A stretch of DNA of 64,000 bases from NCBI GenBank assembly GCA_021604645.1, contig BQJJ01000009.1, positions 1 to 64,000 on the forward strand, given 5' to 3'. Shown in pieces: positions 7,426 to 52,076 of the stretch (its first letter is position 1; each line of letters begins with the position of its first letter). A model generated the notes under the pieces. The model was not told the DNA's origin, did not search any database, and saw only the letters and a program-made list of their open reading frames with translations. The DNA is from Methyloligella sp. (lineage in GTDB: Bacteria; Pseudomonadota; Alphaproteobacteria; Rhizobiales; HXMU1428-3). A program made the position numbers and the translations under genes.

Positions 7426-7442
7426 TACGGAAAATAATCAAA

Positions 7443-8783: not shown

Positions 8784-8907
8784 TAATGCGGCGTTAATCA
8801 CAAACAAAATTTAAGTTGAGAAAAGACTTTAATTTGAGAAAAGATAATGGCATGAGTTATATAGCTTAGCCAATTTGGAATAAAAGAAAGATTGAAGAGT
8901 TTAAAAA

Positions 8908-21425: not shown

Positions 21426-21502
21426 GGTCCCATAGCTCAGCTGGATAGAGCAACTGCCTTCTAAGCAGTAGGTCCGAGGTTCGAATCCTCGTGGGATCGC
21501 CA
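21426..21502 (+). tRNA. tRNA-Arg (TCT), integration target
   Basis: 77-nt cloverleaf with CCA. Acceptor GGTCCCA/TGGGATC (one G-T pair). Anticodon stem TGCCT-type with loop CTTCTAA, giving anticodon TCT. The gene is intact because the integrated element rebuilt its 3' part. The same 3' sequence recurs at 52014. Confidence 0.95.
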
Positions 21503-21508
21503 TTCTTT
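21446..21508 (+). repeat. Left attachment site (tRNA-Arg 3' part)
   Basis: 63 bp from TAGAGCAACTGCC within the tRNA to the six bases ATTCTT plus T after it, matched base for base at the right end. Confidence 0.93.
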
Positions 21509-27365: not shown

Positions 27366-28631
27366 TTGAGTAACCCGCACTTTGATTTAAAAACTATATC
27401 GCGCTCGAACGGGACTTGGTTTTCAGCTGTCAAAGCTGCATCTTATATTTCAGGACAACGGCTTTATGATGCGAATGCCAAAGAATATATTGATTATACT
27501 TGGCGTAAAGATGTCGCTCATTCTGAAATACTGGCTCCTGAAGGAACACCGACTTCTTTACTCAATCGGGAATGTTTGTGGAACAAAGTGGAGGAATGCG
27601 AAAAACGTAAAGACAGCCAGCTTGCCCGCTCAATCATTATCGGTATGCCTCATGAAATAAGCCATGATGAACGTGTGGATTTACTGCGGGGATATGTGCA
27701 AGATAATTTTGTCTCTCAAGGGATGATTGCCGATATTGCCTTGCATAAGCCTAGTACTGATCAATCAGCAGACAACCGCAATCATCACGCACATATTTTA
27801 CTAACTTTGCGCAAGGCCGATGAAAACGGCTTCTATCGCACCAAAACCCGCGAATGGAATTCACGAGACAATGCTATTAAATGGCGCAAGTTATGGGCTG
27901 ATCATCAGAACCAAACTTTTGAGCGTAAGGGGCTGGTTTTGCAAGTGGATGAGCGTACGCTCAAACCTAAGCATGAGATGGTGTATGGAAATCAACAATT
28001 TCCAAAGGAATATCAATTTGAGCTCACACCAGAGTTAAAAATGGGTAGACCAAACAGTCCTGACTTTGCCCAGAACTTGCTTAGTAATCAAAGCATCATT
28101 GATGGGAATTTAGATGTTCTCTCAGAGCTGCATGACAAGGCAGACAAACGCTTGCAGAAAATAGACCGTATGAAAGCGCGTCTTAAAAAGCAGGAACGGG
28201 AAAGGCAACGTAAACAGGGCAGGGGCATAAAAACCCGTGATTCTGAATTTAACAATTTAAGCCAAACAATTTGGCAAATCAAAAGTGCCTCCCGTATCCA
28301 CAAACGTCTACGGTTCTTAGCAAAAAAGTCAGATGAGCATTTTCAGCTTATGATTTACCTGCATGGATTTAAGATGGCTTTGGTTGCACGAAAACATGAT
28401 CTAAGAAAGCTTGAAAAAAATCTGCATTATATCGAATATCTAGGCGCTAAAATTGATAAATTCTTTGGCAGAGTGGGTGAAAAAGAACAACAGAAAGAAC
28501 GTGATAAAGCCTTTAACCCCAATAAAAAGTCAGAGTTGAAGCCAAAGAAAAACAAGAAGCTGTCTGTTAAAAATGTACAACAAGAAAACAATAAACAGCG
28601 GCGTCGGCAGAGACGGAAAGGGCCGTCTTAG
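27366..28631 (+). CDS. MobA/MobL family relaxase
   Basis: 421-residue DNA-nicking relaxase of the MobA/MobL (MOBQ-like) family. The N-terminus has the typical AVKAASYISGQRLYD and the later metal-binding motif NRNHHAHILLTLR (about 137-149). The C-terminal third is a highly basic coiled coil (RLKKQERERQRKQGRG; KKSELKPKKNKK). It starts with TTG. It would nick at oriT and pilot the strand to the coupling protein. No primase domain is visible. Confidence 0.88.
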   Translation: MSNPHFDLKTISRSNGTWFSAVKAASYISGQRLYDANAKEYIDYTWRKDVAHSEILAPEGTPTSLLNRECLWNKVEECEKRKDSQLARSIIIGMPHEISHDERVDLLRGYVQDNFVSQGMIADIALHKPSTDQSADNRNHHAHILLTLRKADENGFYRTKTREWNSRDNAIKWRKLWADHQNQTFERKGLVLQVDERTLKPKHEMVYGNQQFPKEYQFELTPELKMGRPNSPDFAQNLLSNQSIIDGNLDVLSELHDKADKRLQKIDRMKARLKKQERERQRKQGRGIKTRDSEFNNLSQTIWQIKSASRIHKRLRFLAKKSDEHFQLMIYLHGFKMALVARKHDLRKLEKNLHYIEYLGAKIDKFFGRVGEKEQQKERDKAFNPNKKSELKPKKNKKLSVKNVQQENNKQRRRQRRKGPS

Positions 28632-30007: not shown

Positions 30008-31588
30008 CTAAGCTGCTTTGGTGGCAGTTTCTTTATTTTCAGGCTCTTTGCTATCAGATTGCTGCGTGAACTCATCCGTCAGAATAACATTATGATGCGG
30101 TGGGCAACCATCCCATAAATCATAAAGACCTTTAAAGAAGCTATGGGTGTAATGCATTTTGTTTGCCAAAATTGGGCGCATGCCTTTTTGCAGCACGATA
30201 CATTGATTTTGTTCCATAGACATAATCTCATCAGCCGTCATAAGCGGCCGTGAGGCTTCGCCTGTTCCACCATTAATGGAATTTGGCATGACGTCAGTCA
30301 TCCCGTGATGATGGCCTGCCGAGCGGGTTTTAACTGTTTTAACACCCAATGTATCGGAAAGCTTTTTTGCCTCTTCAATTTGATTAATACCAAAAACGAT
30401 CTTTGTATTACAATTGGCCTCAAAGCTTTCCCAGCCATTACCATAGACCCGTTTGGCCTGGGCAATATCCTGCACAAACAGGCAAAGCTGAATGCCAGCT
30501 TTGCGCGCAATTGAAATTGCTGTTTCAAATGGTTTTAGCCGTCCTAAATTGGCAAACTCATCAAGCATGAACGTAACCCGTTTTGGGGATCTAGATTGAG
30601 CGCGATTAATTTCAGCAAGCGCCACACCAGTCATCATGGCAAGGGCTGGGTAATATGTCGCTAGATGCTCAGGCGGTACCACAAGATAAATCGTCTCAGT
30701 TCTAAATCTAGCATTAGCAAAACTAAAATCTGAGCTTTTCGTAACTTCGTTTAATAAAGGACTATCCCATATGCGTGTTTTGCTTTGAACGGTGGCCATG
30801 ACATTGCTGCGTAGTTTGCTTTCCTGATTTTGCAGCATGTGAGCAACGCGTGTAATGAGGGGATGACCATAATGAACCATGGCTATCAGCACCTCGTCGA
30901 ATGCTTCCTCGCTTAAGGTGATAAGGTGGCGCACCTCACCTAACGTGCGTTTTTCTGGCTGTCTGGTGTAGAGCACATAAAGGATGATGCCCATTAACAC
31001 CTCGCGTGCTTGGCAATCCCAAAAACTATCTTCTGAGTTCGCGCTATCAGGAACAATCAAAGATGTTATAAGTTCCACATCATCCCGCTCATTTGTAGTG
31101 CCAGCGCGCACATAATCAAGAGGGTTATAACAATCAGACAGTGGGCTAAAAGGTGCCCATAAATGTACGTAGCCATATTTGCGGCGCTCGCGTTTGGTGG
31201 TTGCCCAGCATTCGCCATTCGGGTCAGTAACAACGGCTGAAGTATCGCCAAGCTTAAGCAGGTTAGTAATTACAAAACATGTTGTTTTGCCTGACTTAGT
31301 GGGAGCGGTAATCAATGCGTGATCATCGTGGGGAGCATATAATCGCTCACCTTTAATTTCTCCGACAATCAAGCCTTCTCCATCATTAAAGCCTGCTTGT
31401 TTTAATTCTAAAAAATTTGAAAAACGCGCAGAACCGAATGTTTTTGCATCTTTACCAAACAGGTAAACTAAGCCTTTGCGCAGCCAGCGAAATACGACAG
31501 CTACACCTTTTAGGCTACTAAAGCAAAGACGAAGCAAGAACCATATGATTTTAAAGTTCAAATTGAAAATCTTACATATTGTCCCCAT
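30008..31588 (-). CDS. Type IV coupling protein, VirD4/TraG family
   Basis: 526-residue hexameric ATPase that links relaxosome and mating channel. Walker A is TAPTKSGKTTCFV (about 91-103). Walker B is VTFMLDEFANLGRLKPFETAIS (about 330-350). QLCLFVQDIAQAKRVYG and LMTADEIMSMEQNQCIVLQKGMRP follow. The N-terminus has a single short hydrophobic stretch (IIWFLLRLCF) rather than the usual two full membrane spans, so it is shorter than many relatives. No VirB genes accompany it. Confidence 0.92.
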   Translation of the reverse strand: MGTICKIFNLNFKIIWFLLRLCFSSLKGVAVVFRWLRKGLVYLFGKDAKTFGSARFSNFLELKQAGFNDGEGLIVGEIKGERLYAPHDDHALITAPTKSGKTTCFVITNLLKLGDTSAVVTDPNGECWATTKRERRKYGYVHLWAPFSPLSDCYNPLDYVRAGTTNERDDVELITSLIVPDSANSEDSFWDCQAREVLMGIILYVLYTRQPEKRTLGEVRHLITLSEEAFDEVLIAMVHYGHPLITRVAHMLQNQESKLRSNVMATVQSKTRIWDSPLLNEVTKSSDFSFANARFRTETIYLVVPPEHLATYYPALAMMTGVALAEINRAQSRSPKRVTFMLDEFANLGRLKPFETAISIARKAGIQLCLFVQDIAQAKRVYGNGWESFEANCNTKIVFGINQIEEAKKLSDTLGVKTVKTRSAGHHHGMTDVMPNSINGGTGEASRPLMTADEIMSMEQNQCIVLQKGMRPILANKMHYTHSFFKGLYDLWDGCPPHHNVILTDEFTQQSDSKEPENKETATKAA

Positions 31589-34837: not shown

Positions 34838-34842
34838 TTAAT

Positions 34843-36123
34843 ATGAACAGATGGGGCGAACAATTTCAATCACATCCGATACATGCGACCATAAAAGAAG
34901 CTTATGAACTTATTAATATTGAGTTTAATGATACTGATAGTGATGAACAGTCAGAAAAAAGACGGTTGCTTAAGTTGGTAAACCTTTTTGAAGAAACTAT
35001 AAAAGGCCTTGATGCAGAACTAATTCCATACAATCTTCTAGATCAAATCAATACAGCAATTCGTCAGCAAAATGTATGGAACCAGTTCACAGCATATAAT
35101 TCAAACGGAAACAGTCAGCATTTAAAAAATGCAAATGATCATTTAAATAATGTACTCCTACAATTTACTCAGTTATTGGCAATAGCTAAAAGATCAGAAG
35201 TTACCACCCCTCTAAAAGGTCTAGAAAAATCGCTTGATGAATTTGCGAATGCTATTTCATCAAAAAAAGAAAAATTAGAAGATGATATTGATAAGGCATC
35301 CGATTTAATCAACAAACAGGATAAACAACTAGAAGAATTATCTACAGCTATTATCACAAAAAAACAGGAAACAGATACGCTATTAGCCACATGGCAAGAG
35401 CATCATTCTAATGCCCAAAATAAAAGAGATGCTGATTTTACAGCAGACCAAAAAGTAAGAACAGATGCCTTTGCAACATGGAAAGAAGAAGTCGAACAGG
35501 ATGCAAAGAAGCAACTCAAAGAGATAATAGATAGTAGCACCGAAACACTTAATGCAGGACAAAACGATTTTGATAAAAATATATCATCCTTTATCAAAAA
35601 CGCAGAGAATAAACATGCTGCAATACTAGAACTATATGAGTTAGTCGCAGGTGATAGTGTTGCATCAGGATACTTGCAAAGTGCTGAGAGTGATAAAAAG
35701 CAGGCAAACTTTTGGCGTTGGGCAGCAATTGTATTTATTGTTTTTACTGCGATTTGGACAGGATATGCGTACATTGCAGACACGGGTATTGGTGTTAGTG
35801 GAGAGATATTGTGGGGTAAAATTCTAAAAGCTTTCTCTGTTACAGGGGTTCTATTATTTGGTGCTGCTTATTCAGCAAAACAGTCAAACTCTCATCGTCA
35901 AAGTGAAACGCAGGCGCGATGGTTCGCGTTAGAGGTTAAAGCTATTGATCCATTTATTTCTTCTTTATCAGAAACCGATCAAAAAGCTCTCAAGAATAAA
36001 TTAAGCGACCGTTTATTTGCTCAACAACATAATAAAACTGAAAAAGAAGCACCTATTATGGATGAGAACGCCTATACAACAATAGTAAAAGGCATCACTG
36101 ATATTTTAAAAGCCAATAAATAA
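34843..36123 (+). CDS. Coiled-coil membrane protein of the methyltransferase operon
   Basis: 426-residue protein of no family I recognise. Residues about 125-265 form a long coiled coil (LEKSLDEFANAISSKKEKLEDDIDKASDLI and following, shown here only in part). Two membrane segments follow at about 290-312 (WRWAAIVFIVFTAIWTGYAYI) and 327-345 (AFSVTGVLLFGAAY). The last 80 residues are soluble and helical. It is tightly placed between the methyltransferase and helicase genes (5 and 12 bp), so it is almost certainly part of the same system. A membrane-bound sensor or effector is a reasonable inference. Confidence 0.75.
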   Translation: MNRWGEQFQSHPIHATIKEAYELINIEFNDTDSDEQSEKRRLLKLVNLFEETIKGLDAELIPYNLLDQINTAIRQQNVWNQFTAYNSNGNSQHLKNANDHLNNVLLQFTQLLAIAKRSEVTTPLKGLEKSLDEFANAISSKKEKLEDDIDKASDLINKQDKQLEELSTAIITKKQETDTLLATWQEHHSNAQNKRDADFTADQKVRTDAFATWKEEVEQDAKKQLKEIIDSSTETLNAGQNDFDKNISSFIKNAENKHAAILELYELVAGDSVASGYLQSAESDKKQANFWRWAAIVFIVFTAIWTGYAYIADTGIGVSGEILWGKILKAFSVTGVLLFGAAYSAKQSNSHRQSETQARWFALEVKAIDPFISSLSETDQKALKNKLSDRLFAQQHNKTEKEAPIMDENAYTTIVKGITDILKANK

Positions 36124-36135
36124 GAAAGCTCATCA

Positions 36136-38058
36136 ATGCCAAATATCGTCGACGTCACATATGCCCAAACGGGGGAAAGCACCAAAACCAATTCAATGGG
36201 TATGCGAGAAATGCAGGAGCGTGCTTACTCTGCACGTGATGCGCAATACCTGTTGCTGAAATCGCCGCCTGCTTCAGGTAAATCTCGTGCGTTGATGTTT
36301 ATTGCGTTGGATAAGCTGATTAACCAAGGCTTGCAGAAAGTCATTGTAGCCGTGCCTGAAAAGTCTATCGGTGGGTCATTTGGTAAGACTGACCTTAAAG
36401 AACACGGATTTTTCGCTAACTGGGAACCTAACGATATATATAATCTTTGTACCTCTGGTGGCGAGAAAAGTAAAACGGAAGCCTTTATGCGTTTCATGGA
36501 GAGTGATGAACAAATTCTTATTTGTACGCACGCGACGTTACGCTTTGCTTTTGAACAAATCGATGAAAGTAAATTCGATAATTGCTTGCTTGCCATCGAT
36601 GAATTTCATCATGTATCTGCCGATAAAGAAAATAGTCGTTTGGGTGGATTGCTGAATTCTATCATGACGAAATCCAGCGTTCATGTGGTTGCTATGACAG
36701 GTTCTTATTTTCGTGGAGATGGCGTGCCTGTTTTAATGCCTGAAGATGAAGCTAAATTCTCAAAGGTTACTTATAATTATTACGAGCAACTGAATGGCTA
36801 TGATTATCTTAAATCTCTAGGCATTGGTTATCATTTCTATCAGGGAAAATATACTAGCGCGATTGATGAAGTGCTGGATACGGATAAGAAAACAATTCTA
36901 CATATTCCAAATGTAAATGCAGGTGAATCCACTAGAGACAAATACCAAGAAGTCGATACCATATTGGATATCATTGGTGACGTGGATTATCAGGATGCCA
37001 GCACTGGCATTATCTACCTAAAGCGCCGCTCAGATGGAAAGGTTTTGAAAGTCGCAAACCTTGTGGAAGAAATCGGCCGTGACCGCGTGCAAGAATATCT
37101 GCGCAAAATTGAATCTGTGGATGACATGGATTTAATCATTGCCCTTGGCATGGCAAAAGAAGGATTTGACTGGCCATATTGCGAACATGCTTTAACAGTG
37201 GGTTACAAAGGGTCTTTAACAGAAGTTATTCAGATTATCGGGCGTTGCACGCGTGATAGCGATAATAAAATACACGCTCAGTTTACAAACCTGATTGCCC
37301 AACCAGACACAAAAGATGATATTGTTACGCTATCGGTAAATAATATGCTTAAAGCAATCACGTGCTCTTTGTTAATGGAGCAGGTTCTAGCGCCTAACTT
37401 CAAGTTTAGAGCAAAGGTATCTGGTGATGATGAGGAAGCCAAATCAGGAGAGATTAAAATCCGAGGATTTAAAGAGCCAACATCCAAGCGCGTAAAAGAA
37501 ATTGTTGAATCTGATCTTAATGATTTAAAGGCAAGTATTTTGCAGGATGATAAAATAATCAAAGCTTTGCCTGGCAATGTTGATCCTGAAGTAATCAACA
37601 AGGTGATGATCCCCAAAATTATTAAAATTAAATATCCTGAATTATCAGATGAAGAAGTAGAAGAAGTGCGGCAGCATGTCGTGGTTGATTCCGTGATTAA
37701 AAACGGTGAAATCAAGGAAACTGGCGATAAGCGTTTTATTCGTATGGCTGGCAAGTTTGTGAATATTGATGATTTGCACGTCGATCTAATTGATAGTGTA
37801 AATCCATTTCAAGCGGCCTTTGAAATTCTATCCAAATCCGTAACAGCGCAGGTGTTCCGTGTCATTCAGGGAGCGATTGAAGCCACCCGCATACAAATGA
37901 CAGATGAAGAAGCTATGCTGTTGTGGCCAAAGATTAAAAGCTTTGTACAAAACAACAATGGACAGCAACCAAATATTAACGCAGTTGATCAGCTGGAGCA
38001 GCGTCTAGCTGAAGCTTTAGTCTATATTCAAAATCAGCGCAGACAGCAGAATTTATAA
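36136..38058 (+). CDS. DExH-box superfamily 2 helicase
   Basis: 640 residues. Motif I is LKSPPASGKSRALMF (about 40-54). Motif II is AIDEFHHVS (DEFH, about 152-160). Motif III is VAMTGSYFRGDG (about 178-189). Motif VI is VIQIIGRCTRDSD (about 365-377). The type is that of restriction or phage-defence translocases. The C-terminal about 220 residues are acidic and unassigned. It is co-directional with the methyltransferase, membrane and GIY-YIG genes and probably translocates on DNA to couple recognition to cleavage. Confidence 0.9.
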   Translation: MPNIVDVTYAQTGESTKTNSMGMREMQERAYSARDAQYLLLKSPPASGKSRALMFIALDKLINQGLQKVIVAVPEKSIGGSFGKTDLKEHGFFANWEPNDIYNLCTSGGEKSKTEAFMRFMESDEQILICTHATLRFAFEQIDESKFDNCLLAIDEFHHVSADKENSRLGGLLNSIMTKSSVHVVAMTGSYFRGDGVPVLMPEDEAKFSKVTYNYYEQLNGYDYLKSLGIGYHFYQGKYTSAIDEVLDTDKKTILHIPNVNAGESTRDKYQEVDTILDIIGDVDYQDASTGIIYLKRRSDGKVLKVANLVEEIGRDRVQEYLRKIESVDDMDLIIALGMAKEGFDWPYCEHALTVGYKGSLTEVIQIIGRCTRDSDNKIHAQFTNLIAQPDTKDDIVTLSVNNMLKAITCSLLMEQVLAPNFKFRAKVSGDDEEAKSGEIKIRGFKEPTSKRVKEIVESDLNDLKASILQDDKIIKALPGNVDPEVINKVMIPKIIKIKYPELSDEEVEEVRQHVVVDSVIKNGEIKETGDKRFIRMAGKFVNIDDLHVDLIDSVNPFQAAFEILSKSVTAQVFRVIQGAIEATRIQMTDEEAMLLWPKIKSFVQNNNGQQPNINAVDQLEQRLAEALVYIQNQRRQQNL

Positions 38059-38069
38059 GGTGCATAGGC

Positions 38070-39224
38070 GTGGATAAAGATGATTTGCTAAAGCTGATTG
38101 AAGATGATGATTTAGGGCTTTTAAATGTTAAGTCTAAGCAATCTGCTGCTGCCACTGCAGATGAGCGCCTTATCTCATCCTTCACTCAAATCAATAAATT
38201 TATCTCCGAAAATGGCCGAGAACCTGAAAGCGGTAGAGGCATTCAAGAACACCAGCTTTATGCCCGCCTGAATGGTATTCGTGAAAATGTTGAGAAGATG
38301 GAAGCTCTTGCAAATCTAGATGAGCATGGTTTGCTAAATGTCCAGCGCAAAGAAATCAGCTCTATTGATGATATTTTTGATGATGATGATTTGGGTATTT
38401 TAGGTAATGAAGCAGAGAGCATATTTACGCTGAAGCACGTTTCAAAAAAAACGACAATGCCTGACTATGTCGCCCGCCGTAATCCATGCAAGAATTTTGA
38501 AACGTTTGAAGCAATATTTATTCAATGCCAAGCCGATCTAACAGCTGGTAAAAGAAAGTTGTGGCCATTTAAGAATGAGCAACAAATTCAAAAGGGTTAT
38601 TTTTTTGTTCTTAAAGGTGTACTGCTCTATGTGGCTGATGTGGGTGAAGTTGAGAAAAATAATGGCAAAAAGAATGCTAGGTTGCGGTGTGTTTTCGAGA
38701 ATGAGACCGAGTCAGATATGCTTTTACGTTCACTGGCAGCGGAGCTTTATAAAGATGGACGGCGCGTAACCGAGCATGAAGACCACTTATTAGATGGATT
38801 CAGCAATATTACCGATGAGGACGAAGAAACAGGCTACATATACGTGCTACGCTCTTTAAGCAGCAAGCCCGAAATTCAAGAAGTTGAAAACCTTTATAAA
38901 ATCGGTTTTTCAACTGTACCTGTTGAACATCGAATTAAAAATGCAGAAAAAGAACCAACATATTTAATGGCACCCGTTCACATCGTAGAGACTTATCAAT
39001 GCTACAATATGAACCCGCAAAAACTTGAGCAGATGCTTCATATGTTCTTTGGATCGTCTTGTCTAAATATTGATGTGTTCGATCAGAATGGCCAACGCCA
39101 CACGCCTCGTGAATGGTTCATTGCGCCACTAGATATTATTGAGCAAACAATACACTTTGTGATGAATGGAGATATTGTGAATTACCGTTATGATCCAAAT
39201 CAACAAACAATTGTAGTCAGATAA
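38070..39224 (+). CDS. GIY-YIG nuclease (T5orf172/MUG113-like domain)
   Basis: 384 residues, GTG start, last gene of the operon. The C-terminal domain shows TGYIYVLRSLSS (about 253-264), LYKIGFS (about 275-281), VEHRIKNAEKEP with the catalytic-type Arg, KLEQMLHMFF with the conserved Glu and the terminal REWFIAPLDIIEQ. These fit a GIY-YIG fold of the T5orf172/MUG113 branch. The N-terminal 120 residues carry a repeated acidic motif: DDDLGLLNV (about 11-19), HGLLNVQ and DDDDLGILG (about 105-113). It is the probable nuclease of the system. Confidence 0.88.
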   Translation: MDKDDLLKLIEDDDLGLLNVKSKQSAAATADERLISSFTQINKFISENGREPESGRGIQEHQLYARLNGIRENVEKMEALANLDEHGLLNVQRKEISSIDDIFDDDDLGILGNEAESIFTLKHVSKKTTMPDYVARRNPCKNFETFEAIFIQCQADLTAGKRKLWPFKNEQQIQKGYFFVLKGVLLYVADVGEVEKNNGKKNARLRCVFENETESDMLLRSLAAELYKDGRRVTEHEDHLLDGFSNITDEDEETGYIYVLRSLSSKPEIQEVENLYKIGFSTVPVEHRIKNAEKEPTYLMAPVHIVETYQCYNMNPQKLEQMLHMFFGSSCLNIDVFDQNGQRHTPREWFIAPLDIIEQTIHFVMNGDIVNYRYDPNQQTIVVR

Positions 39225-41787: not shown

Positions 41788-42783
41788 ATGACAGAATATA
41801 ACCAACCCCTTCATCATATCACCCCATCAGGTAAGTACCGCAATTGGCGCAAACATCGGTTGCAAGCCATTGCCTTAGGGGCGGCATACAAACGTTTAGG
41901 GGTTGGTTTTCAGAAAAAAGCAGAACGAGTGTTTGTGTGCTCTCGCCGGATTGATTTCACAAAACCACAAGATGACCAACTGGGATCAACAGTTGTTAAC
42001 CGCTATGGCTGCAAAGATCGTCTTTGTCCAGGTTGTCAATCTTCCCGATCACGTAAGAACTTTATGGAATTGATGCAACTCTATCAGCGTTACCATGAGG
42101 CTTACCCTGGTGACCGGGCCGCAATGCTAACACTGACTATTCCCAATGTGTCCGTTTCAACTATGAAAGAAGAGCTAAGTGCTCTTCTCACCGGCTTTAG
42201 AAAGCTTACCCGCCGCAAGCCCTTTGAACATGCTGTAAGAGCTTGGTTTCGGGCGCTAGAAGTTTCATATAACCCAAACACCGGTCTTTATCACCCGCAT
42301 ATTCATGCGTTGCTTCTGTTTCCACCTCACTATTTTGATAAACAACATAATTATTATCTCAAGCATCAGCAGTGGTTGAAGCTCTGGCAGCAGGTTATGC
42401 GCCGAACGGATATTAAACATCTCGACATTCGGATGCTTAAACCACACCCGCAAGACATCACAGGTAATGTCAAATCACCTGTGATGGGCAAGGCCATTGC
42501 AGAAATTGCGAAATATGCCACGAAACCAGCCGATATTTTTATGCCAAGAGGCCGCGGTTTTGCCGTTGATGAGAAGGTTATCTTTGCTCTTGCTTACACA
42601 CTTAAACACCGGCGTTTGATCGCCTACAGCAAAGTCTTTCGGGAATATCGCCGAGAGAATAAATCACAAATAACAGAATCCAAGATGGATGACTTAGATG
42701 TCTATATCTGGATGGAGCAGCCGGATGTGCAGACGGCTGATTACTACCTCCATGAAGAAACTGCATTTAACACTAAACTTTAA
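41788..42783 (+). CDS. Rolling-circle replication initiator (Rep_1-like, HUH)
   Basis: 331 residues. A zinc-finger-like segment is CKDRLCPGCQSSRSRKNF (about 72-89), followed by motif I AMLTLTIPNVSV and HUH motif YHPHIHALLLFPP (about 167-179). The motif III region EIAKYATKPADIF (about 239-251) places the nicking tyrosine and lysine. This is the pattern of Rep proteins of small rolling-circle plasmids. It is followed within 15 bp by a small gene and then the FtsK-type translocase. Confidence 0.85.
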   Translation: MTEYNQPLHHITPSGKYRNWRKHRLQAIALGAAYKRLGVGFQKKAERVFVCSRRIDFTKPQDDQLGSTVVNRYGCKDRLCPGCQSSRSRKNFMELMQLYQRYHEAYPGDRAAMLTLTIPNVSVSTMKEELSALLTGFRKLTRRKPFEHAVRAWFRALEVSYNPNTGLYHPHIHALLLFPPHYFDKQHNYYLKHQQWLKLWQQVMRRTDIKHLDIRMLKPHPQDITGNVKSPVMGKAIAEIAKYATKPADIFMPRGRGFAVDEKVIFALAYTLKHRRLIAYSKVFREYRRENKSQITESKMDDLDVYIWMEQPDVQTADYYLHEETAFNTKL

Positions 42784-42798
42784 AAGAAAGGAGCAGCT

Positions 42799-43062
42799 AT
42801 GCCGCTCATGTACACTGGAAAAATAGAAGGTATGAAACGTAGCAGCTATGATGGCGTTGAACGCTTAGCGCTGCAATTCATCGAACGCAAAACGGATGGA
42901 TCTCTTGATCCCATTCAGATCAAGGTGCCTCTTGATGTGCCACAAACGGAACTCAAGGTTGGTGTAACGGTCCAACTGCCTGTTTTGTTAGCTAGCATGG
43001 ATAACCGGATTTATTATCGGGTCGATGCGGACGCTTACAGAGCCCAGCTGGCCCGTAAGTAA
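42799..43062 (+). CDS. Small protein between Rep and FtsK genes, possible ssDNA-binding protein
   Basis: 87 residues behind an AAAGGAG site. It is beta-rich with TGKIEGMKRSSYDGVERLALQFIE and KVPLDVPQTELKVGVTVQLPV, suggesting a small OB-like barrel. By position (Rep - this - translocase) it could bind the displaced single strand, as in small rolling-circle elements and filamentous phages. No sequence signature proves this. Confidence 0.6.
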   Translation: MPLMYTGKIEGMKRSSYDGVERLALQFIERKTDGSLDPIQIKVPLDVPQTELKVGVTVQLPVLLASMDNRIYYRVDADAYRAQLARK

Positions 43063-43083
43063 CGCCTTATGCAGAGATCAGCT

Positions 43084-43180
43084 TTACCGGAAAAGATGCA
43101 TCAAACATTGATCACTGCCACCACTACCTAGCCTGGGCAGGCTAATGCGCAAAGTCTGCTCAGCATTTTTCTTCCGGAGA
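43084..43180 (+). promoter_or_regulatory. Folded leader of the FtsK-type gene
   Basis: CCGGAA (43087-43092) pairs with TTCCGG (43172-43177), then ATGC with GCAT inside. A local hairpin TAGCCT/AGGCTA (43129-43134/43139-43144) lies in the loop. The right outer arm overlaps the CCGGAGA ribosome binding region of the translocase gene. Confidence 0.55.
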
Positions 43181-43185
43181 TACTT

Positions 43186-45027
43186 ATGATTGATACTCGC
43201 ACTAAATTAGAAAAAACCCTTGGAAGGTTAGCCTACAATTATGTGGGTACAGCCTTACGGACCCAATTATGGATGGTTTTTGGACTATCCATCACTTACT
43301 TTATGCATAAGCCAGGTGAGCCTTTTTTTGATAGCTTATTCGTGTACCTTACCGCGATGACCTTTAGCTTTGGTTTTTTCTTTCCCTATCTGTCCACTTA
43401 TTTAAGACACTATACAGCCAATGCAAAAGGTCCGCCCCATCTTTGGTGGCTTATTGTTGAAAGAACCATGTTACCGATATTCTTTATAGTTTTTTGCAAC
43501 ATAGCAAAGCAACGCTTAGACCGTCACTATTCCATCGGGCAGCAATGGATCAGCAGTTCCAAAAAACTTTGCCTATTAGAACAATCGGATAAACTTGTCG
43601 AACTATCAGACAAACTTGCTCAAGAAAATGAGCAAAAACAAACGCGTCTGCTTAAAATTATCAATTGGGGAATGAAGCGTTACAGAAATCAAAGCACCCA
43701 TAAATTTGTCAATGCCATGCGAGCGGTTGGCCAACATATTGATGAACTAGAGCCGCATTATAATTGGGGAACTAGTGAAGAGACTTTATGTAATTTGTTT
43801 GAGCGGTATAATTATGGTCTTCCAACTCATAAAGAACTGATTGAAGACAGATACCGCACTAAGATGTCTCCAAGTTATGATGGCAAACATCTTCCTGAGA
43901 TCTCACCGCAACAACCAACATTTGAAGGCAAGATGTTATATCTTGCTGTGCTCATCAGAGCTGAACAAGATAAGCACTATAACAAATTGGATTTTAAACG
44001 ATCTGATTTTAAAAGGGGACACTTTGTCTATAAGTCTGATCGAAGTGCTATTGATATTGATTATTGGAAAAGAAACCTGCCAGCTATCAATGTTTATCTT
44101 GGTGGTGAATGGATGGTCGAGCCTATAGACGGCACCTCTCTCATGCTTTTTAAACTGCAAGAATTACCACCGGTCATTCCGTTTCAGACAGAATTTTTAC
44201 GAGACGGTGAAATCTTCTATGGCTTTAACGTCAGAACGGGGGAGCGCTATTATAATGATCTTGATAAATTCCCACATCATCTCATTGTTGGTCAATCGGG
44301 CTCTGGAAAGTCAGTGTTTTTAAATCAAGTGATGGCGTCTGTTATTCACAACATGGATTATTTTGAAAAGATTGTCCTGGTTGATTTAAAGGGTGGTGTA
44401 GAGCTTGGAAAATATGAAGGGCTGCATTCAAACATTGAGTTGGTTGATGATTATGATGCTCTCTTGGGTAGTGTTGAAAAAGTCTATGCGCAATTGGAAG
44501 CACGCCTTAAACTTATGAAACAAAAAGGTCATACCATTTTTGACGGTCCGCATTTGTGTATGATCGTTGATGAATATGCTCAAATCCAACAGTTTGAACC
44601 AATCACCAAACAAGAAAAAGAAGCTTATAAGCTTTTGCTCTCCTATTTAAATCGCATTTCAATGAAGGGGCGTGCAGCTCGGGTGACCATCTGGGCGCAA
44701 CTTCAAAAAGCTACCGTGGATAATATTAGTTCCAGCTTTAGAAACAACCTTCAGACTAAAATTTGTTTCAAAGTCCATTCTAACACCGATGCAGCAATTG
44801 TATTTGGTAACGCTGCTGATTTGCCAGGCATAGCTTCATTAGGTGGGTTCAAGAATTTGCCGAAGGGTCGTTTTGTATTAAGTGATGATGTCACAGGTGA
44901 AGATGTGTATATGCAAGCAGCGATGCTAGATGACGGGGTTCCGCTGGCCCGTCTACTTCAGACGGCTGGCGGTGCACGAGTGGTAAGTGAGGAGCAAGTC
45001 GACGAGCAAGTGCGTGAGGCCGAGTGA
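43186..45027 (+). CDS. FtsK/SpoIIIE domain DNA translocase
   Basis: 613 residues. Two to three N-terminal membrane segments lie at about 27-45, 53-75 and 87-108. A long helical linker follows. The ATPase domain carries Walker A HHLIVGQSGSGKSVFLNQ (about 365-382) and Walker B CMIVDEYAQIQQFE (about 457-470). RAARVTIWAQLQKA then fits the FtsK/SpoIIIE fold. With the adjacent Rep it recalls actinobacterial-type elements in which a single TraB/FtsK pump moves DNA, but it might also serve replication or partition of the element. Confidence 0.88.
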   Translation: MIDTRTKLEKTLGRLAYNYVGTALRTQLWMVFGLSITYFMHKPGEPFFDSLFVYLTAMTFSFGFFFPYLSTYLRHYTANAKGPPHLWWLIVERTMLPIFFIVFCNIAKQRLDRHYSIGQQWISSSKKLCLLEQSDKLVELSDKLAQENEQKQTRLLKIINWGMKRYRNQSTHKFVNAMRAVGQHIDELEPHYNWGTSEETLCNLFERYNYGLPTHKELIEDRYRTKMSPSYDGKHLPEISPQQPTFEGKMLYLAVLIRAEQDKHYNKLDFKRSDFKRGHFVYKSDRSAIDIDYWKRNLPAINVYLGGEWMVEPIDGTSLMLFKLQELPPVIPFQTEFLRDGEIFYGFNVRTGERYYNDLDKFPHHLIVGQSGSGKSVFLNQVMASVIHNMDYFEKIVLVDLKGGVELGKYEGLHSNIELVDDYDALLGSVEKVYAQLEARLKLMKQKGHTIFDGPHLCMIVDEYAQIQQFEPITKQEKEAYKLLLSYLNRISMKGRAARVTIWAQLQKATVDNISSSFRNNLQTKICFKVHSNTDAAIVFGNAADLPGIASLGGFKNLPKGRFVLSDDVTGEDVYMQAAMLDDGVPLARLLQTAGGARVVSEEQVDEQVREAE

Positions 45028-45280: not shown

Positions 45281-45421
45281 TTAAAACCAACCGCGTCTGG
45301 CTCTTTTCTTAGCGCGGCGTCGTTTTATCCAAGTGGTATAAAAGCGACGCAACTTGGCAAATAGGTGCATCGACACATAAAGAATAAAAGCCGATTTCCA
45401 AAGTAGTAGTTCAAATTCCAT
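45281..45421 (-). CDS. Very small membrane protein (46 aa)
   Basis: Begins MEFELLLWKSAFILYVSMHL and ends in a strongly basic tail (WIKRRRAKKRARRGWF). A good AAGGAG site lies 8 bp before the ATG. One membrane helix with a positive cytoplasmic end is predicted by eye. It lies directly downstream of the double hairpin at 45465-45661 and could be expressed from it. Function unknown. Confidence 0.6.
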   Translation of the reverse strand: MEFELLLWKSAFILYVSMHLFAKLRRFYTTWIKRRRAKKRARRGWF

Positions 45422-45464: not shown

Positions 45465-45577
45465 ATCTCTAGCCTTTTCACAGCCGAGGGGCTCCCGTCT
45501 GCAAGCGGAATATAAAATATTACCCGAAGGGTTCTATATCCGCTGAAGATGGGAAACGGCTTGAAAAGGCTAGAGAT
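45465..45577. promoter_or_regulatory. Long imperfect hairpin H1
   Basis: Nested perfect arms: 16 bp (45465-45480 with 45562-45577), AGCCG/CGGCT, CCCGTCT/AGATGGG, AGCGGA/TCCGCT, TATA/TATA and ACCC/GGGT. About 40 pairs in 113 nt. It lies upstream of the 46-aa gene and after the end of ardA. It is a candidate single-strand promoter, single-strand origin or mRNA control fold. Confidence 0.75.
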
Positions 45578-45589
45578 GATAACAGAATG

Positions 45590-45661
45590 CCCCATGAGAG
45601 CCTGGACAAGGGAGCAGCCCCCATATAGCTGGAGACCGCTGGCCAGGCATCTCTCATGGGG
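45590..45661. promoter_or_regulatory. Second hairpin H1b
   Basis: 11-bp perfect arms CCCCATGAGAG/CTCTCATGGGG (45590-45600/45651-45661), then CCTGG/CCAGG inside. It adjoins H1, so the 200-bp stretch after ardA is nearly all foldable. Confidence 0.7.
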
Positions 45662-45686
45662 GAAATGCAACTTAAAAAACACTTGT

Positions 45687-46193
45687 CTAAGGACAAATGT
45701 AGATAAAGTTTTTTCCAGCAATCATAACTTCTGCGTACTCCATAGAGAGATTGTAGGCGATTGATTCATAGTCAATGTACCATTCAAGCGCTTTAGGGAT
45801 CTCACCAAAGAGGCCTTCTTCAACAAAGTGTTCAGCAAGTTCAGTCATGTTTCTGAACTGATAGAGAGTGACATCAAAGTCATCGGGATTAACCGTTTGA
45901 GGGTCGAAGTCATAGCCGCATTCGCCTATTGCGATGATAAAGCATTGTTTCTCATACTCAGACCAATTATCAGTAACTTTGAAAAAACTCTCCAGTGAGC
46001 ATTGAGATAAGCCCCAGGCATTTGCCAGCGCTACATCAATGCTTTCGCCTTCTATAAACTGGATTTCATATTCTTCAACGGGCTGATTATAATCATTTCG
46101 GTTGACTTTGGCTTGTTTGAGATACTCTTCTGCATTGTCGAAATAAAAGCCTGAAGCTGAAATGTCGTAAGGTTGAGCATATAGGGTTGTCAT
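45687..46193 (-). CDS. ardA: Antirestriction protein ArdA
   Basis: 168 residues, the normal ArdA size. ArdA is an acidic DNA mimic that blocks type I restriction enzymes during entry of a mobile element. Seen here are TLYAQPYDISASGFYFDNAE, many Asp/Glu residues (ESIDVALANAW, DDFDVTLYQF) and the conserved end YFIDYESIAYNL-type segment (WYIDYESIAYNLSMEYAEV). The ATG at 46193, behind AAAAGGAGAAAC, is preferred over an upstream in-frame start. That ribosome binding site lies in the outer arm of a 191-nt palindrome. Confidence 0.93.
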   Translation of the reverse strand: MTTLYAQPYDISASGFYFDNAEEYLKQAKVNRNDYNQPVEEYEIQFIEGESIDVALANAWGLSQCSLESFFKVTDNWSEYEKQCFIIAIGECGYDFDPQTVNPDDFDVTLYQFRNMTELAEHFVEEGLFGEIPKALEWYIDYESIAYNLSMEYAEVMIAGKNFIYICP

Positions 46194-46384
46194 GATTGTT
46201 TCTCCTTTTGTTTTCAAGACAGCGGAGAGACAAGCCGGGTGCTGAGCGCCAAGGGTCACTGACAGCTTTGCTGGAAGGAAACGGCCAACACGGGCTTCCT
46301 TTAAGCTGGCGCGGGCAGGCCGTTGACCCTGCGCTCCAAACCGCTAGACAGCAGCAACTTGAATAAACAAAAGGAGAAACAATC
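46194..46384. promoter_or_regulatory. 191-nt imperfect palindrome H2 in front of ardA
   Basis: Outer arms of 20 bp are perfect: GATTGTTTCTCCTTTTGTTT (46194-46213) with its complement at 46365-46384. Further nested arms are TCAAG/CTTGA, AGCGG/CCGCT, GAGCGC/GCGCTC, AGGGTCA/TGACCCT, CAGCTT/AAGCTG and AAGGAA/TTCCTT. The left arm is the ardA ribosome binding site. As RNA this would hide the site. As single-stranded DNA it would give a double-stranded promoter-like stem. Confidence 0.8.
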
Positions 46385-46689
46385 TGATAACAATGCTTGT
46401 AACTGAACAAATTTAATCTGGCTCATTGAGACGTCAGTGTTCTCATGACCTTCAAGCACAATTGAAAGGACTTAAATTAGTTAGCTAAGAATTATCGGTT
46501 TTAAGAAACGGTAATTCAATGATTTGCGCTTTCAAGTGTTGAATAGCGGCTTCTAGGCTTACTGTTTTTATAGCATCTGATAACAGCGTATGTTTATGAG
46601 AATTAGATGCTTTTTTCTTATATATCGACTTCCCGTTCAAGCCTCTTCTTCAATGTTCATCCCAACATCTGTATTGTTTTCGCCGCGCT
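46385..46689. other. Gap between the ardA and ardC leaders
   Basis: About 305 bp of AT-rich DNA without supported genes. Promoters for either divergent gene could lie here, but none was clear. Confidence 0.35.
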
Positions 46690-46868
46690 CTTTTCAAGCA
46701 ACAGCTCTTGCTGCCTTTCGCTTTCCTATGGTGCGTAACGTGCTTCCCGTCTGGATGCAATGAGCTTCCGCACCAAGTGACCGAGAAGCTATGCATCCAG
46801 CCGCTCAGCACGTTCTCTCCCGCACCATCGAAAGGCAGTTGTTTCAGAGCTGTCTTAATTTTGAAAAG
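46690..46868. promoter_or_regulatory. 179-nt imperfect palindrome H3 in front of ardC
   Basis: Seven nested perfect arms, about 56 pairs. CTTTTCAA/TTGAAAAG (46690/46861), ACAGCTCT/AGAGCTGT (46701/46846), CTGCCTTTCG/CGAAAGGCAG (46711/46829) and ATGGTGCG/CGCACCAT (46728/46821) come first. AACGTGCT/AGCACGTT (46737/46807), CTGGATGC/GCATCCAG (46751/46793) and AGCTTC/GAAGCT (46763/46785) follow. The right outer arm runs into the AAAAGGAG ribosome binding site of ardC. Confidence 0.85.
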
Positions 46869-46878
46869 GAGAGCTCTT

Positions 46879-47763
46879 ATGAAAAAAAGCAAAAAAGATA
46901 TTTATCAAACAGTGACTGATCAGATTATTACGGCACTTGAGCAAGACACAGGAGATCCACAAATGCCCTGGCAACGCAGTGGATTTCAAACAGGCTTACC
47001 AACCAATGCTTCCACCCAAAATGAATATCAAGGCATTAACATTCTTTCATTATGGGCTTCAGCAATGACACAACAATTTGAACAAGGGCTTTGGGCCACT
47101 TATCGCCAATGGCAAGCCATCGATTGCCAGGTTAAACGGGGTTCTAAAGCCAGTATGGTTGTTTTCTATAAGGAATACAAAGTAGACCCAAGCGCTGTTA
47201 ATGAGGCAGAGGGAGATGACGGCAAGCGCCGTGTGGCAAAAGCCAGCCAAGTCTTTAATGTCGCTCAGGTTGAGGGTTATAATCAAGAAAAGATTATTAA
47301 ACCACAACCCCCAATGGATCGTATTTTAAAAGCCGATCAATTTATTCAATCTTCTTCTGCCACCATTAAATTTGGTGGAGACCGAGCATATTACCAGCCA
47401 GCCACTGATCATATTCAAATGCCGGATGAACATCTATTTATTGGAACTGAAACTTTCAATCGTCAGGAAGCCTATTATGCCGTGCTGCTTCATGAACTTA
47501 CTCATTGGACCGGCCATACATATCGCCTTAACCGTTCGTTTAGTGACCGTTTTGGAAATGAAGCTTATGCAATAGAAGAACTGGTTGCTGAACTTGGTTC
47601 TGCTTTTCTCTGTGCTGATCTAAACATCACACCTGAGACTAGACCAGATCATGCTAAATATATTCAATCATGGCTTAAAGTTATGAAAGCCGATAATCGT
47701 GCCGTCTTTGCTGCGGCTTCTAAAGCGCAGGAAGCAGTGCGTTTTTTAAAACAGCTAATATAG
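46879..47763 (+). CDS. ArdC-like antirestriction protein (ssDNA-binding domain plus zincin-like metallopeptidase domain)
   Basis: 294 residues from the ATG behind AAAAGGAGAGC. The N-terminal ssDNA-binding half has YQTVTDQIITALEQ, MPWQRSGF and NILSLWASAMTQQF. The C-terminal zincin-like half has VLLHELTHWTGHTYRLNR (HExxH, about 203-207) and the downstream glutamate in YAIEELVAELGSAFL. ArdC-type proteins protect entering single-stranded plasmid DNA against restriction. The gene is divergent from ardA. A terminator follows. Confidence 0.9.
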   Translation: MKKSKKDIYQTVTDQIITALEQDTGDPQMPWQRSGFQTGLPTNASTQNEYQGINILSLWASAMTQQFEQGLWATYRQWQAIDCQVKRGSKASMVVFYKEYKVDPSAVNEAEGDDGKRRVAKASQVFNVAQVEGYNQEKIIKPQPPMDRILKADQFIQSSSATIKFGGDRAYYQPATDHIQMPDEHLFIGTETFNRQEAYYAVLLHELTHWTGHTYRLNRSFSDRFGNEAYAIEELVAELGSAFLCADLNITPETRPDHAKYIQSWLKVMKADNRAVFAAASKAQEAVRFLKQLI

Positions 47764-48063: not shown

Positions 48064-49053
48064 ATGGGTTATGATTCACAGAACAATCTATCAGTAGGTA
48101 CTAAACTTCGCCCGGTTTTGGAAACAGTTGAGTTGCTAGGTTATAAGCCGATTAAAGACAATTTGAGTGTTCCCAATAGAGTGGGGTGTTATTTCTGGTA
48201 TGATGAAAAAGATTATAAGTCTTGGTCTGGTGTTAATCTTGATGTGTACAAGAATGAAGGTCTTATTACCATCGAAATAGGATCCAGGATTTCTGGAAGT
48301 TATTGGGACCTAACTCATCAGAATAAAACTCTGAGACTGATGCGAGATCTGTTTGGTGGTCACTTTTCCACTAGTTTTGGACGAAACAGATACTGGCGTC
48401 TGGATGACCCTCCACCTTCTCCGGTGTCTTCCGGATGCTATTTGGCACGATGGCATTTCCATAATGCGCAAGCTAAAGCGCACATCTACCTGATGACAAG
48501 GAAGTTAGAGGGGGAGATAACAAGGGAGAAGTCAACTGGCCTAGAATTCATGGATGAAATGAATCCACGCCTATTGTCGAATAACCTTCTAATCCCCTAC
48601 GTTATAGCTATATGGGAGGAATACTTTCGTTCAACTTTTGCGGTGGCCATCAAATACGTAGATAATCGAGACTCAGTGTTAAAGAAAATTCGCCTGAATA
48701 ACGCGCAACTTAAACAAATTGCTGAAAAACAGAAACCTATAGAACAGATCATTTCTGAGTGTTTTTCGTTTCAGCGTCCAAGTCTGATAACCCAGAATTT
48801 TAAAATGCTCGATAACAATATCGATATTGCTGCTGCCCTTCGAAAGCCATATCGTAGCAGGAAATTGACATTGTATGATTCTATCGAAGCACTTGTTGAA
48901 GGTCGAAACGACTTTGTGCATACTGGTAAAATGGACTTAACTCTCTATGATCGAGAGTTAGAACGGCATTTAGTTGATATTGTAGAAGCCATTGATCGGG
49001 CTTACGGTGTCATGGGATCGTGTTTTGACTTTATTCCGATACACGACTACTGA
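48064..49053 (+). CDS. Putative HEPN-domain protein
   Basis: 329 residues. The C-terminal helical part contains EALVEGRNDFVHTG, whose R-N-D-F-V-H (about 281-286) is the Rx4H motif of HEPN ribonucleases, with the polar residue after Arg that is usual in active members. The N-terminal half (WSGVNLDVYKNEGLITIEIG) is a separate unassigned alpha/beta part. HEPN proteins of this size often act as RNA-targeting toxins or defence effectors. No antitoxin partner was seen next to it. Confidence 0.65.
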   Translation: MGYDSQNNLSVGTKLRPVLETVELLGYKPIKDNLSVPNRVGCYFWYDEKDYKSWSGVNLDVYKNEGLITIEIGSRISGSYWDLTHQNKTLRLMRDLFGGHFSTSFGRNRYWRLDDPPPSPVSSGCYLARWHFHNAQAKAHIYLMTRKLEGEITREKSTGLEFMDEMNPRLLSNNLLIPYVIAIWEEYFRSTFAVAIKYVDNRDSVLKKIRLNNAQLKQIAEKQKPIEQIISECFSFQRPSLITQNFKMLDNNIDIAAALRKPYRSRKLTLYDSIEALVEGRNDFVHTGKMDLTLYDRELERHLVDIVEAIDRAYGVMGSCFDFIPIHDY

Positions 49054-49253
49054 AATCATGTTTATCGTTATCATATAGTCCATGGCTGATAGCTATCACA
49101 CATGTGCCTGGTCTACAGTGCCATTCCACTTACAATGTAAAAAATAAAAAAGAAGAATTAAAGAATAACCGCTTTGCCTCAAACTCTCCTTCTTCGCAAA
49201 CACTGCTTAGATTGGCTCTTGGCACTAAGTGACCCAAGCAGGTATATATCAGG

Positions 49254-50504
49254 CTATGTATAAAACCTTTGATTCATTTCGCAATGTTTTAGAACTGGTT
49301 CAAAAATAGTATCATACCAAAACCATTGGCTTTTAATCCACACACCATATCCCTTGCCTTTCTTTTTGGCTTCTATTGACTTCCAAAATTGCTGAAAATG
49401 ATGTTTGTTAAATTTAGGGTAACCACGACTATGAACATAATCGAGCACTTCTCGTTGGAAATATTTAGCTTTTTCTGCATCTTTAAGGATCACAGTGGCC
49501 ACCTTTGAAATATCTTCATCACTTCTAGCAATCTTTAGAATTTCATCAGCCCCACCTTTGCGGTTTGCTGTGCGAGGTAAAATATGAATACGGTAAGCAT
49601 AGTGAGGATCATTATACTCATCATAAGTGAGGTGGCTTTCAAAAGCCTCTTGAACAACTACCAATTCTTTTGGAAGAGTAACTTCTTTTCTGGATTTAAG
49701 ATCTTTATCAAAGACAAATTCACTCATTTGTAGACTAAAAGGAAGTTTAGTTGCTATTTCATACTCTTTGCCTAATAAACTGCTAATGTATCGATTGAAA
49801 TTTAAAGAGTTGGCTTGAAACTTAGAAGCAAGAGATTGATCAATCTGATCAGAACCACGATGTTCAATTTCATGACGAATTTCAATGAGAAATAATAGGT
49901 TATTTTTAGTTCCACTGTCTAATGGACATTTTGAATGTGATAGGCACCCACCAAGATCGATTAGTTTTTCTTGACCATGCCTAGTTTTTACAATTTCTCC
50001 TTTTTTATTTTTGTATCTTATATCTTCGCCCAGATCTAAATAATGAGCGTGCAAAAGATAAGTCCAAGCGATGCATATATTGACTATAAAAATTTCTGAT
50101 TTGAACTTTATTGAAGGATTATTAAAAACAGAAATTGCTGAAATCATAGCCTCTTGAGCTAGGATTCCTAGTTCATCTCGTCTTGCTGATGGAACAAACT
50201 TTAGTTCTCTCATTTTGAGAAGAAGTTGATGATAACGCATCAAACATTCTTTAATTTGAGTTTCAGAGGCAGGCTGTAGTTCCGCGTAACGCCCTTGCCT
50301 ATTTCGTATAAACCCTATCTCACGGTGGTTGACTGTGCGTTCCAAGTGGCTGAATATTGATTGGATCTGCTGATTGTTCAGATCTGTATGAATAGTAAGC
50401 CCTAAAATCTCGGCTTCTTCTTTTGGAGACAAGATTAAGCTTCGCCGACCTAAGGCAGGTTGTGGCAAGCCATTTATCTTTTTATTATCATCGTATCGCA
50501 ACAA
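49254..50504 (-). CDS. DUF3644-type protein (HEPN-like)
   Basis: 416 residues. The features LILSPKEEAEILGLTI, SIKFKSEIFIVNICIAWTYLLHAHYL and LFLIEIRHEIEHRG fit the DUF3644 family. R-H-E-I-E-H (about 208-213) is an Rx4H motif, again pointing to the HEPN superfamily. The C-terminal 150 residues (HILPRTANRKGGADEILKIA onward) may bind DNA. Its role is unknown. A defence or abortive-infection role is inferred from family and from its place beside the integrase and another HEPN gene. Confidence 0.7.
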   Translation of the reverse strand: MLRYDDNKKINGLPQPALGRRSLILSPKEEAEILGLTIHTDLNNQQIQSIFSHLERTVNHREIGFIRNRQGRYAELQPASETQIKECLMRYHQLLLKMRELKFVPSARRDELGILAQEAMISAISVFNNPSIKFKSEIFIVNICIAWTYLLHAHYLDLGEDIRYKNKKGEIVKTRHGQEKLIDLGGCLSHSKCPLDSGTKNNLLFLIEIRHEIEHRGSDQIDQSLASKFQANSLNFNRYISSLLGKEYEIATKLPFSLQMSEFVFDKDLKSRKEVTLPKELVVVQEAFESHLTYDEYNDPHYAYRIHILPRTANRKGGADEILKIARSDEDISKVATVILKDAEKAKYFQREVLDYVHSRGYPKFNKHHFQQFWKSIEAKKKGKGYGVWIKSQWFWYDTIFEPVLKHCEMNQRFYT

Positions 50505-50707: not shown

Positions 50708-51862
50708 CTAAACCATTCTATTTTTCATCGTATCTTTGATCAAGTGGCCTACTTCTTCGTTTAATTCCTTTACAGGATTATTGGTGATGTGAGCATATCT
50801 TTCCGTAGTCGTAGATTTCTTATGCCCTAGTAATTTTCCAATGTGCAGCAATGATGCTCCACTTTCAGCTGCTGTTGATGCAAAAGAATGCCGTAGATCG
50901 TGAATTCGAAAATTCTCTAAACGAGCTGTCTTTCTCACAATAACCCAGGGTTTTTGAATATTGACCATCGACCGGCAATAGACTTTGCCAACAATGACAT
51001 ATGGATTGTTTGTCTGTCTTGGAATTGATTGAAGAACTGCCATTGCTGGTTCATTGAGATTGATTGATTTCGCTCCGGTCTTAGAATCGGGTAAAAAGAT
51101 CACCTGCTTTTCATAGTTGATATACTCCCACTTTAAATTGAGGATCTCACCTTTTCGTGCACCAGTGAATATCAATAATCGTATGGCAGCAGCTGCATAA
51201 AGTGAGATCCTCCCCTTGGCCTCTTCTTCACTAATGGCACCACCCAGGCGACTAAGCTCCTCTTTTGATAAATAACGCTCAACTTTATTTTCTGTAAATC
51301 TTTTGATCCCCTTACAAGGGTTGCTATTGATTGGACGGTACCCATATTCTTCTGCCCAGCTCATTATCACTGAAATAACCATGAGAGTTACATTTGCATA
51401 GCGAGGTGTATGAGCATATTTGTGATGCAACTTCGTAATGTCGGGCCGAGAAATTTCGCTTATGATCATTTTTCCTAAAAAAGGTAAAATTTTCTTGTCA
51501 ATCACAGCGCTATATTCGCGACGGGTTGTTGGCTTAATATTTGGATAGTGTGATTGCTTAAAATGATCCACCAGCTCTTTGAGTGAGACTGCCGTTTCTT
51601 TTTCTTTCGCTGTCTGTATTGGATCAACTTTAAAAGCCATTGCTTGACGACGGGCTGTATCTGGCGTCCAGGGTAAACCATGACGGCCAATGGTGATGAA
51701 CTTCTGTTTACCCCGAATGCACGTCTTTAGAAAATAACTTGCACTCAGTCTTTGACGTCTCACGCCAAAGCCCTTGAGGGAGGTGTCATAGACAGTGTCA
51801 CCCGGTTGCAACCGTTCCACCACAGTTTTATTGATATGTGCACGAAAGCTCTTTTTATCCAT
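50708..51862 (-). CDS. Tyrosine-type integrase
   Basis: 384-residue phage-type recombinase of the element. The N-terminal arm-binding region (GDTVYDTSLKGFGVRR) is typical of P4-like integrases. The catalytic residues are Arg in FTGARKGEILNLKWE (about 233), the HxxR box HDLRHSFAS (about 319-327), His in LLGHKKSTTTERY and the nucleophile Tyr in ERYAHI (about 357). It lies about 150 bp from the right attachment site, as is usual for tRNA-targeting integrases. Confidence 0.95.
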   Translation of the reverse strand: MDKKSFRAHINKTVVERLQPGDTVYDTSLKGFGVRRQRLSASYFLKTCIRGKQKFITIGRHGLPWTPDTARRQAMAFKVDPIQTAKEKETAVSLKELVDHFKQSHYPNIKPTTRREYSAVIDKKILPFLGKMIISEISRPDITKLHHKYAHTPRYANVTLMVISVIMSWAEEYGYRPINSNPCKGIKRFTENKVERYLSKEELSRLGGAISEEEAKGRISLYAAAAIRLLIFTGARKGEILNLKWEYINYEKQVIFLPDSKTGAKSINLNEPAMAVLQSIPRQTNNPYVIVGKVYCRSMVNIQKPWVIVRKTARLENFRIHDLRHSFASTAAESGASLLHIGKLLGHKKSTTTERYAHITNNPVKELNEEVGHLIKDTMKNRMV

Positions 51863-52013: not shown

Positions 52014-52076
52014 TAGAGCAACTGCCTTCTAAGCAGTAGGTCCGAGGTTCGAATCCTCGTGGGATCGCCATTCTTT
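52014..52076 (+). repeat. Right attachment site (tRNA-Arg 3' copy)
   Basis: Identical to 21446-21508. It includes the anticodon arm, T-arm and CCA of tRNA-Arg but not its 5' half, so it is not a functional tRNA. Confidence 0.93.

Follow-up and report, generated by a model that had tools for sequence, protein, structure and literature searches.

The window, by which we mean the whole 64,000-nt stretch of DNA analysed here, carries an element of about 30.6 kb that is bounded by a 63-bp exact repeat (21446 to 52076). The left copy, attL (21446..21508, + strand), is the 3′ part of tRNA-Arg(TCT), and attR (52014..52076, +) repeats this tRNA end exactly and closes the element. A MobA/MobL relaxase (27366..28631, +) is encoded in the same direction as the antirestriction gene ardC, and profile matches identify a VirD4/TraG-type coupling protein (30008..31588, −), an FtsK/SpoIIIE-family ATPase (43186..45027, +) and a tyrosine integrase (50708..51862, −). 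The Rep_1 rolling-circle initiator (41788..42783, +) is a second possible source of single-stranded DNA (ssDNA). Together with an 87-aa protein and the FtsK/SpoIIIE ATPase, this initiator forms a block that is conserved, along with a MobA/L relaxase, in related elements of the genus (41788-45027 in the window; 6448-9851 in locus L003; 5477-8945 in L064); the pairing of Rep and FtsK recalls actinomycete integrative elements. The cargo at 32180-39224 and 48064-50504, possibly defence genes, encodes an MmeI-like restriction-modification protein, a DEAD-box helicase and T5orf172/MUG113, HEPN and DUF3644 proteins.

The ardC gene itself (46879..47763, +) encodes 294 aa with Pfam matches to the ArdcN ssDNA-binding domain (1.1e-34) and the MPTase-PolyVal metallopeptidase domain (1.4e-51). 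Divergent from it lies ardA (45687..46193, −; start codon read from the sequence), whose match to Pfam ArdA (E 3.1e-05) scores 25.1 bits, just below the 27-bit cut-off. Further along this strand, a 46-aa open reading frame (ORF) with a Shine-Dalgarno sequence (SD) occupies 45281..45421 (−); a Pfam search of this ORF returned no match.

Hairpins ahead of ardC, ardA and a 46-aa reading frame

The ardC leader is covered by a long imperfect palindrome (46690..46868, +). As ssDNA, the + strand is predicted to fold into a single long, imperfect hairpin (66 pairs, −46.8 kcal/mol), and the − strand, which is the template of ardC, forms an equally long one that is more stable (66 pairs, −51.2 kcal/mol). 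The DNA fold of the surrounding 221 nt (46670-46890) reaches −49.9 kcal/mol, compared with a shuffle mean of −27.8 (z −7.3; 0 of 200 shuffles equal), and positions 46681-46880 are the extreme (z −7.5) of a scan of the element in 515 segments of 200 nt (mean z −0.6, sd 1.25). Five inverted repeats (I1, I2, I4, I9 and I12) independently recovered the nested arms. The palindrome of the original prediction is therefore real by fold, shuffles and inverted repeats, with 66 pairs in place of the proposed 56 or so. Its right outer arm had been said to run into the ribosome binding site, and it does: the arm ends at 46868, within the SD AAGGAG (46866..46871, +; read from the sequence), and contains the first three bases of this motif (AAG).

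The original prediction had also proposed predicting the ssDNA fold and looking for promoter boxes in its stem. The former is recovered as a single long hairpin; a promoter scan of 46380-46900 found no sigma-70 −35/−10 pair in the ardC hairpin, and we rejected a sigma-70 promoter within it. The sole sigma-70 site in this interval, compared with 1.1 expected by chance, lies on the − strand outside the hairpin. Neither the window nor 18 related loci gave a relevant family in Rfam searches at gathering and permissive thresholds. Upstream of the leader, a terminator-like inverted repeat (I5) followed by TTTTTT lies at 46572..46617 (+); it was absent from the terminator scan because its loop, at 20 nt, is long.

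The ardC palindrome has company. A palindrome of about the same size leads ardA (about 46197..46380, −; z −6.0), with arms that cover the whole SD. A third long hairpin (45465..45577, −) stands about 43 nt ahead of the start of the 46-aa ORF, and fold analysis places another in tandem upstream of it (45591..45662, −).

The same genome contains a second, diverged element of this kind on contig C17, in which the 46-aa ORF is kept at 93% DNA identity. Between the two copies, the ardA and ardC leaders are 96% and 94% identical, compared with 80% for the spacer, 81% for the ardA gene and 88% for the ardC gene. The leaders of ardC, ardA and the 46-aa ORF are all better kept than the surrounding spacer or the ardA gene. 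The ardA leader is also about 90% identical in two congeneric genomes. A DNA search with the leader against 150 related genomes and 72,556 plasmids (E limit 0.01) found only the C17 copy in its own genome. Two more ardC genes of this genome (43% and 40% identity), at G000:C21:16285-17139 (L067) and G000:C6:204123-205001 (L068), also have structured leaders, which differ in sequence.

ardC leaders in other alphaproteobacteria and on plasmids

Of the 297 genomes searched within the order, 85 carry ardC genes. The 81 distinct leaders collected, nearly all alphaproteobacterial, have a mean fold z of −2.67, compared with −0.80 for a control set of 323 other upstream regions at the same loci (p 1.4e-9, like-for-like); outside the order but within the class, 27 leaders average −2.06. 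By sequence, the leaders fall into 40 clusters, several of which combine a clear long hairpin with a small hairpin of 7-8 bp before the SD; in cluster c6, the SD is paired as well. Cluster c4 was dropped as support, since its leaders contain an ordinary intrinsic terminator, and an ArdC subfamily at about 36% identity has leaders without strong structure and without pyrimidine bias.

In template-strand alignments, 13 of the 35 pairs predicted for A4 and 10 of the 29 for A5 show compensatory two-sided changes that maintain pairing. An apical G.T pair is invariant in 12 of 12 and 11 of 11 sequences of these alignments, a count that derives from template-strand prediction and is hence biased towards that strand. 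The original prediction implied that relatives keeping ardC would keep the palindrome, and structured leaders indeed occur in many alphaproteobacterial genera, in families that covary. By eye, we saw no −35/−10 boxes in the GC-rich leader families. On the template strand, a conserved purine-rich stretch of about CCGGAACGAAGTGGAGG occupies the apical loop and is common to several leader clusters (loci L088, L091, L092, L098, L101, L029 and others).

Covariance models of two ardC leader families, R1 and R2, were searched in the 297 genomes and matched mainly ahead of ardC. They also matched ahead of a ParB-like gene, a YAcAr-domain gene, a 148-aa gene and a gene of 76-82 aa, the last of which stands, in apparently related versions, behind both R1 and R2. 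For ardC and the other led genes alike, the distance from hairpin to start codon is 36-60 nt and includes an SD, and pairs of copies on the same contig share an orientation (3 of 3 cases). Since the same hairpin families stand before other genes, we dropped an autoregulation specific to ArdC. No convincing led gene could be assigned to three of the R2 matches (L123, L128 and L136). The small uncharacterised genes of 148 aa and 76-82 aa (at L113, L114, L116 and L131) are candidates for anti-defence or establishment functions.

The R1 model found no match in the genome of the window, and the best R2 score of the window hairpins, with filters off, was not significant (E 0.13). We therefore place them in this class by architecture and position only: they share architecture with R1 and R2, not demonstrable sequence ancestry.

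On plasmids, one hairpin family occurs in 374 records, mostly from Agrobacterium and Rhizobium and including pTiC58, of which 262 are typed as conjugative. In pRi1724, the apical motif of this family stands before ardC and two DUF736 genes, on one strand and all directed towards the transfer genes, and pTiC58 has the same layout, with ardC pointing to the tra region. Around the excised circle of the window element, ardC lies ~11 kb from the relaxase start, on the same coding strand as in pTiC58; its relation to the relaxase and the coupling protein reproduces the pTiC58 layout, and ardA is opposite.

Strand bias and the readings of the hairpin

The two strands of the ardC leaders are not equivalent. 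The gene strand is pyrimidine-rich (0.559 vs 0.502; p 3e-14). Folds of the template strand are more stable by 3.66 kcal/mol (compared with +0.1 in controls; p 2e-9), an advantage that also holds against structured controls, which show none (p 8e-4). About −2.8 of the −3.7 kcal/mol of asymmetry is due to the purine-rich composition of the template strand, leaving a small excess of −0.86 relative to shuffles (p 0.03). Frpo1 and Frpo2 of the F plasmid, used as a positive control, deviate in the same direction (−15 and −8 kcal/mol). The consensus helices tend towards the template strand in their wobble pairs (G.T vs A.C, 29 vs 19), a trend that is not significant (p 0.19), so no conclusion was rested on these counts.

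The simplest reading of the bias is that the folded template strand is incoming ssDNA; alternatively, the mRNA leader may merely be kept pyrimidine-rich. We lean, if only just, towards the palindrome being a leader signal that works on the arrival of the element in a new cell in single-stranded form. On entry, the ardC template strand would fold into the long hairpin and might recruit RNA polymerase, alone or with a partner, and transcription would leave the hairpin base into ardC before a complementary strand exists. The signal would be lost once the DNA becomes double-stranded. A transcript starting at the hairpin base would lack the left arm and have a free SD; a read-through transcript from upstream would contain both arms and have its SD partly masked. 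An ssDNA signal would also account for leaders that are better conserved than much of the surrounding sequence, and the related hairpins before ardC across many alphaproteobacteria, Ti plasmids included, suggest a signal read from incoming ssDNA.

The ardA and ardC leaders both show the template-strand bias, and as the two genes are divergent, transfer of a single strand could provide a template for only one of them. We speculate that the relaxase and Rep_1, as two potential nickases, might expose different strands.

The template-strand bias favors an ssDNA signal on this strand over a translational lock, in which an mRNA hairpin would hide the SD and keep ardC silent until it is opened or until transcription starts inside the hairpin. 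Such a lock would suit the outer arm over the AAG of the ardC SD, the arms over the whole ardA SD and the paired SD of cluster c6. However, in the other modelled leaders the hairpin ends 36-60 nt before the start codon and leaves the SD free, and G.U pairs are not in excess on the mRNA strand of the leader folds (G.T 26 vs A.C 40). The leader loops are, moreover, rich in pyrimidines in the mRNA, whereas most structured RNAs show the opposite, and the bias points to the other strand; we regard the lock as unlikely. Still less probable, in our view, is that the hairpin is an antisense RNA, structured and transcribed from the strand opposite to the leader. The template strand does resemble a functional fold, with its invariant apical G.T pair, but this reading requires each of several unrelated genes (ardC, parB-like, DUF736 and ardA) to contain its own promoter within its 5′ end and finds no Rfam match; we give it very little credence.

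Long inverted repeats beside start codons are common operators, and the arms confirmed here, beside the start codon of ardC, could in principle form a double-stranded operator for a DNA-binding regulator or a cruciform switch. A double-stranded site should show no strand bias, and the bias is strong; 66 pairs with conserved loops are also far beyond the length of an operator, which makes this reading highly improbable. Strand bias and single-strand use are compatible, by contrast, with a single-strand initiation site or origin, where the folded strand would prime complementary synthesis after transfer or rolling-circle replication and the position before ardC would be secondary. ssoA-type origins carry the CS-6 loop motif TAGCGW, and inspection of 46690-46868 found its TAGCG core to be absent. 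The element encodes a MobA/L relaxase as well as a Rep_1 initiator, and known ssDNA promoters can also prime replication (Masai and Arai 1997, cited in PMC11541004). Several copies per element, at fixed spacing before SD-bearing genes, nevertheless fit expression better, and we judge an origin to be improbable, ranking it below the lock and above the operator.

Relation to known single-stranded signals

Experiments on the enterobacterial plasmids F and ColIb-P9 have established expression from incoming ssDNA, and ssDNA promoters are described in enterobacterial and some other islands. The Frpo1/Frpo2 and ssi promoters of F and ColIb-P9 are very long imperfect hairpins that stand before leading-region genes (ssb, psiB and ygeA; ardA in ColIb-P9) (PMC9849209, PMC11541004). 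The window palindrome is likewise a long imperfect ssDNA hairpin upstream of an establishment gene, and such hairpins recur here as several co-oriented copies. As in Frpo, the fold of the template strand is more stable than that of the gene strand, a difference that in the leaders is mostly an effect of composition. Unlike Frpo and ssi, the window hairpin has no sigma-70 −35/−10 boxes in its stem, measures about 180 nt rather than 300-400 nt, reaches the SD with its outer arm, and leads, with its ardA counterpart, a divergent gene pair. There is also no sequence similarity to Frpo: the window leader was unmatched in 72,556 plasmids (E limit 0.01), and Frpo1 itself as the query matched at least 5000 plasmid records.

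The original prediction of an Frpo-type promoter is thus partly supported: structure, conservation, template bias, establishment genes and Ti/Ri orientation speak for it, and the lack of boxes and of similarity and the divergence of ardA and ardC do not. The palindrome is probably a new, box-less variant of the ssDNA leading-region signals. More tentatively, we consider it possible, though doubtful, that alphaproteobacterial mobile elements, including Ti and Ri plasmids, share a large, strand-specific class of box-less ssDNA hairpins that turns on genes for antirestriction and establishment from incoming ssDNA by means of a conserved apical motif that RNA polymerase, or another factor, recognises. 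If true, the principle of ssDNA expression would extend to a second large bacterial group, and the hairpin family before the ardC, parB-like and DUF736 genes of pTiC58 and its relatives would represent a testable type of box-less promoter. The hairpins would also be of practical use in marking the leading regions of alphaproteobacterial elements, which would guide the search for anti-defence genes. We found no paper on such hairpins in alphaproteobacteria in a literature search that largely excluded subscription journals, so an earlier report is possible; the main text of the leading-region survey PMC11541004 does not name Agrobacterium, rhizobia or DUF736.

Two other systems bear comparison. 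The STAXI motif, for which a role as ssDNA or as RNA has been discussed (PMC2864571), is structured and lies near genes for antirestriction, SSB and integrase. It shares with the window hairpins a position near antirestriction genes and differs in consisting of repeated pseudoknots; Rfam gave no match in the window or the 18 related loci. The sso1 of ICEBs1, a single-strand origin that starts second-strand replication (PMC4595007), is likewise an ssDNA signal on an integrative mobile element, whereas the leaders described here lie at a fixed distance ahead of genes and occur more than once per element.

Finally, the orientation of ardC relative to the relaxase is nearly fixed within a relaxase type and differs between types. 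Among pairs within 40 kb, matched by hand, the two genes are co-directional in 15 of 15 cases with strong PF03432 relaxases and in 8 of 10 with PF03389; in weak PF03432 types, the relaxase is opposite to ardC in 18 of 25 hand-matched pairs. As a fixed orientation may be inherited synteny, we do not take it as proof. It could, however, help to infer the side of oriT and the direction of transfer.
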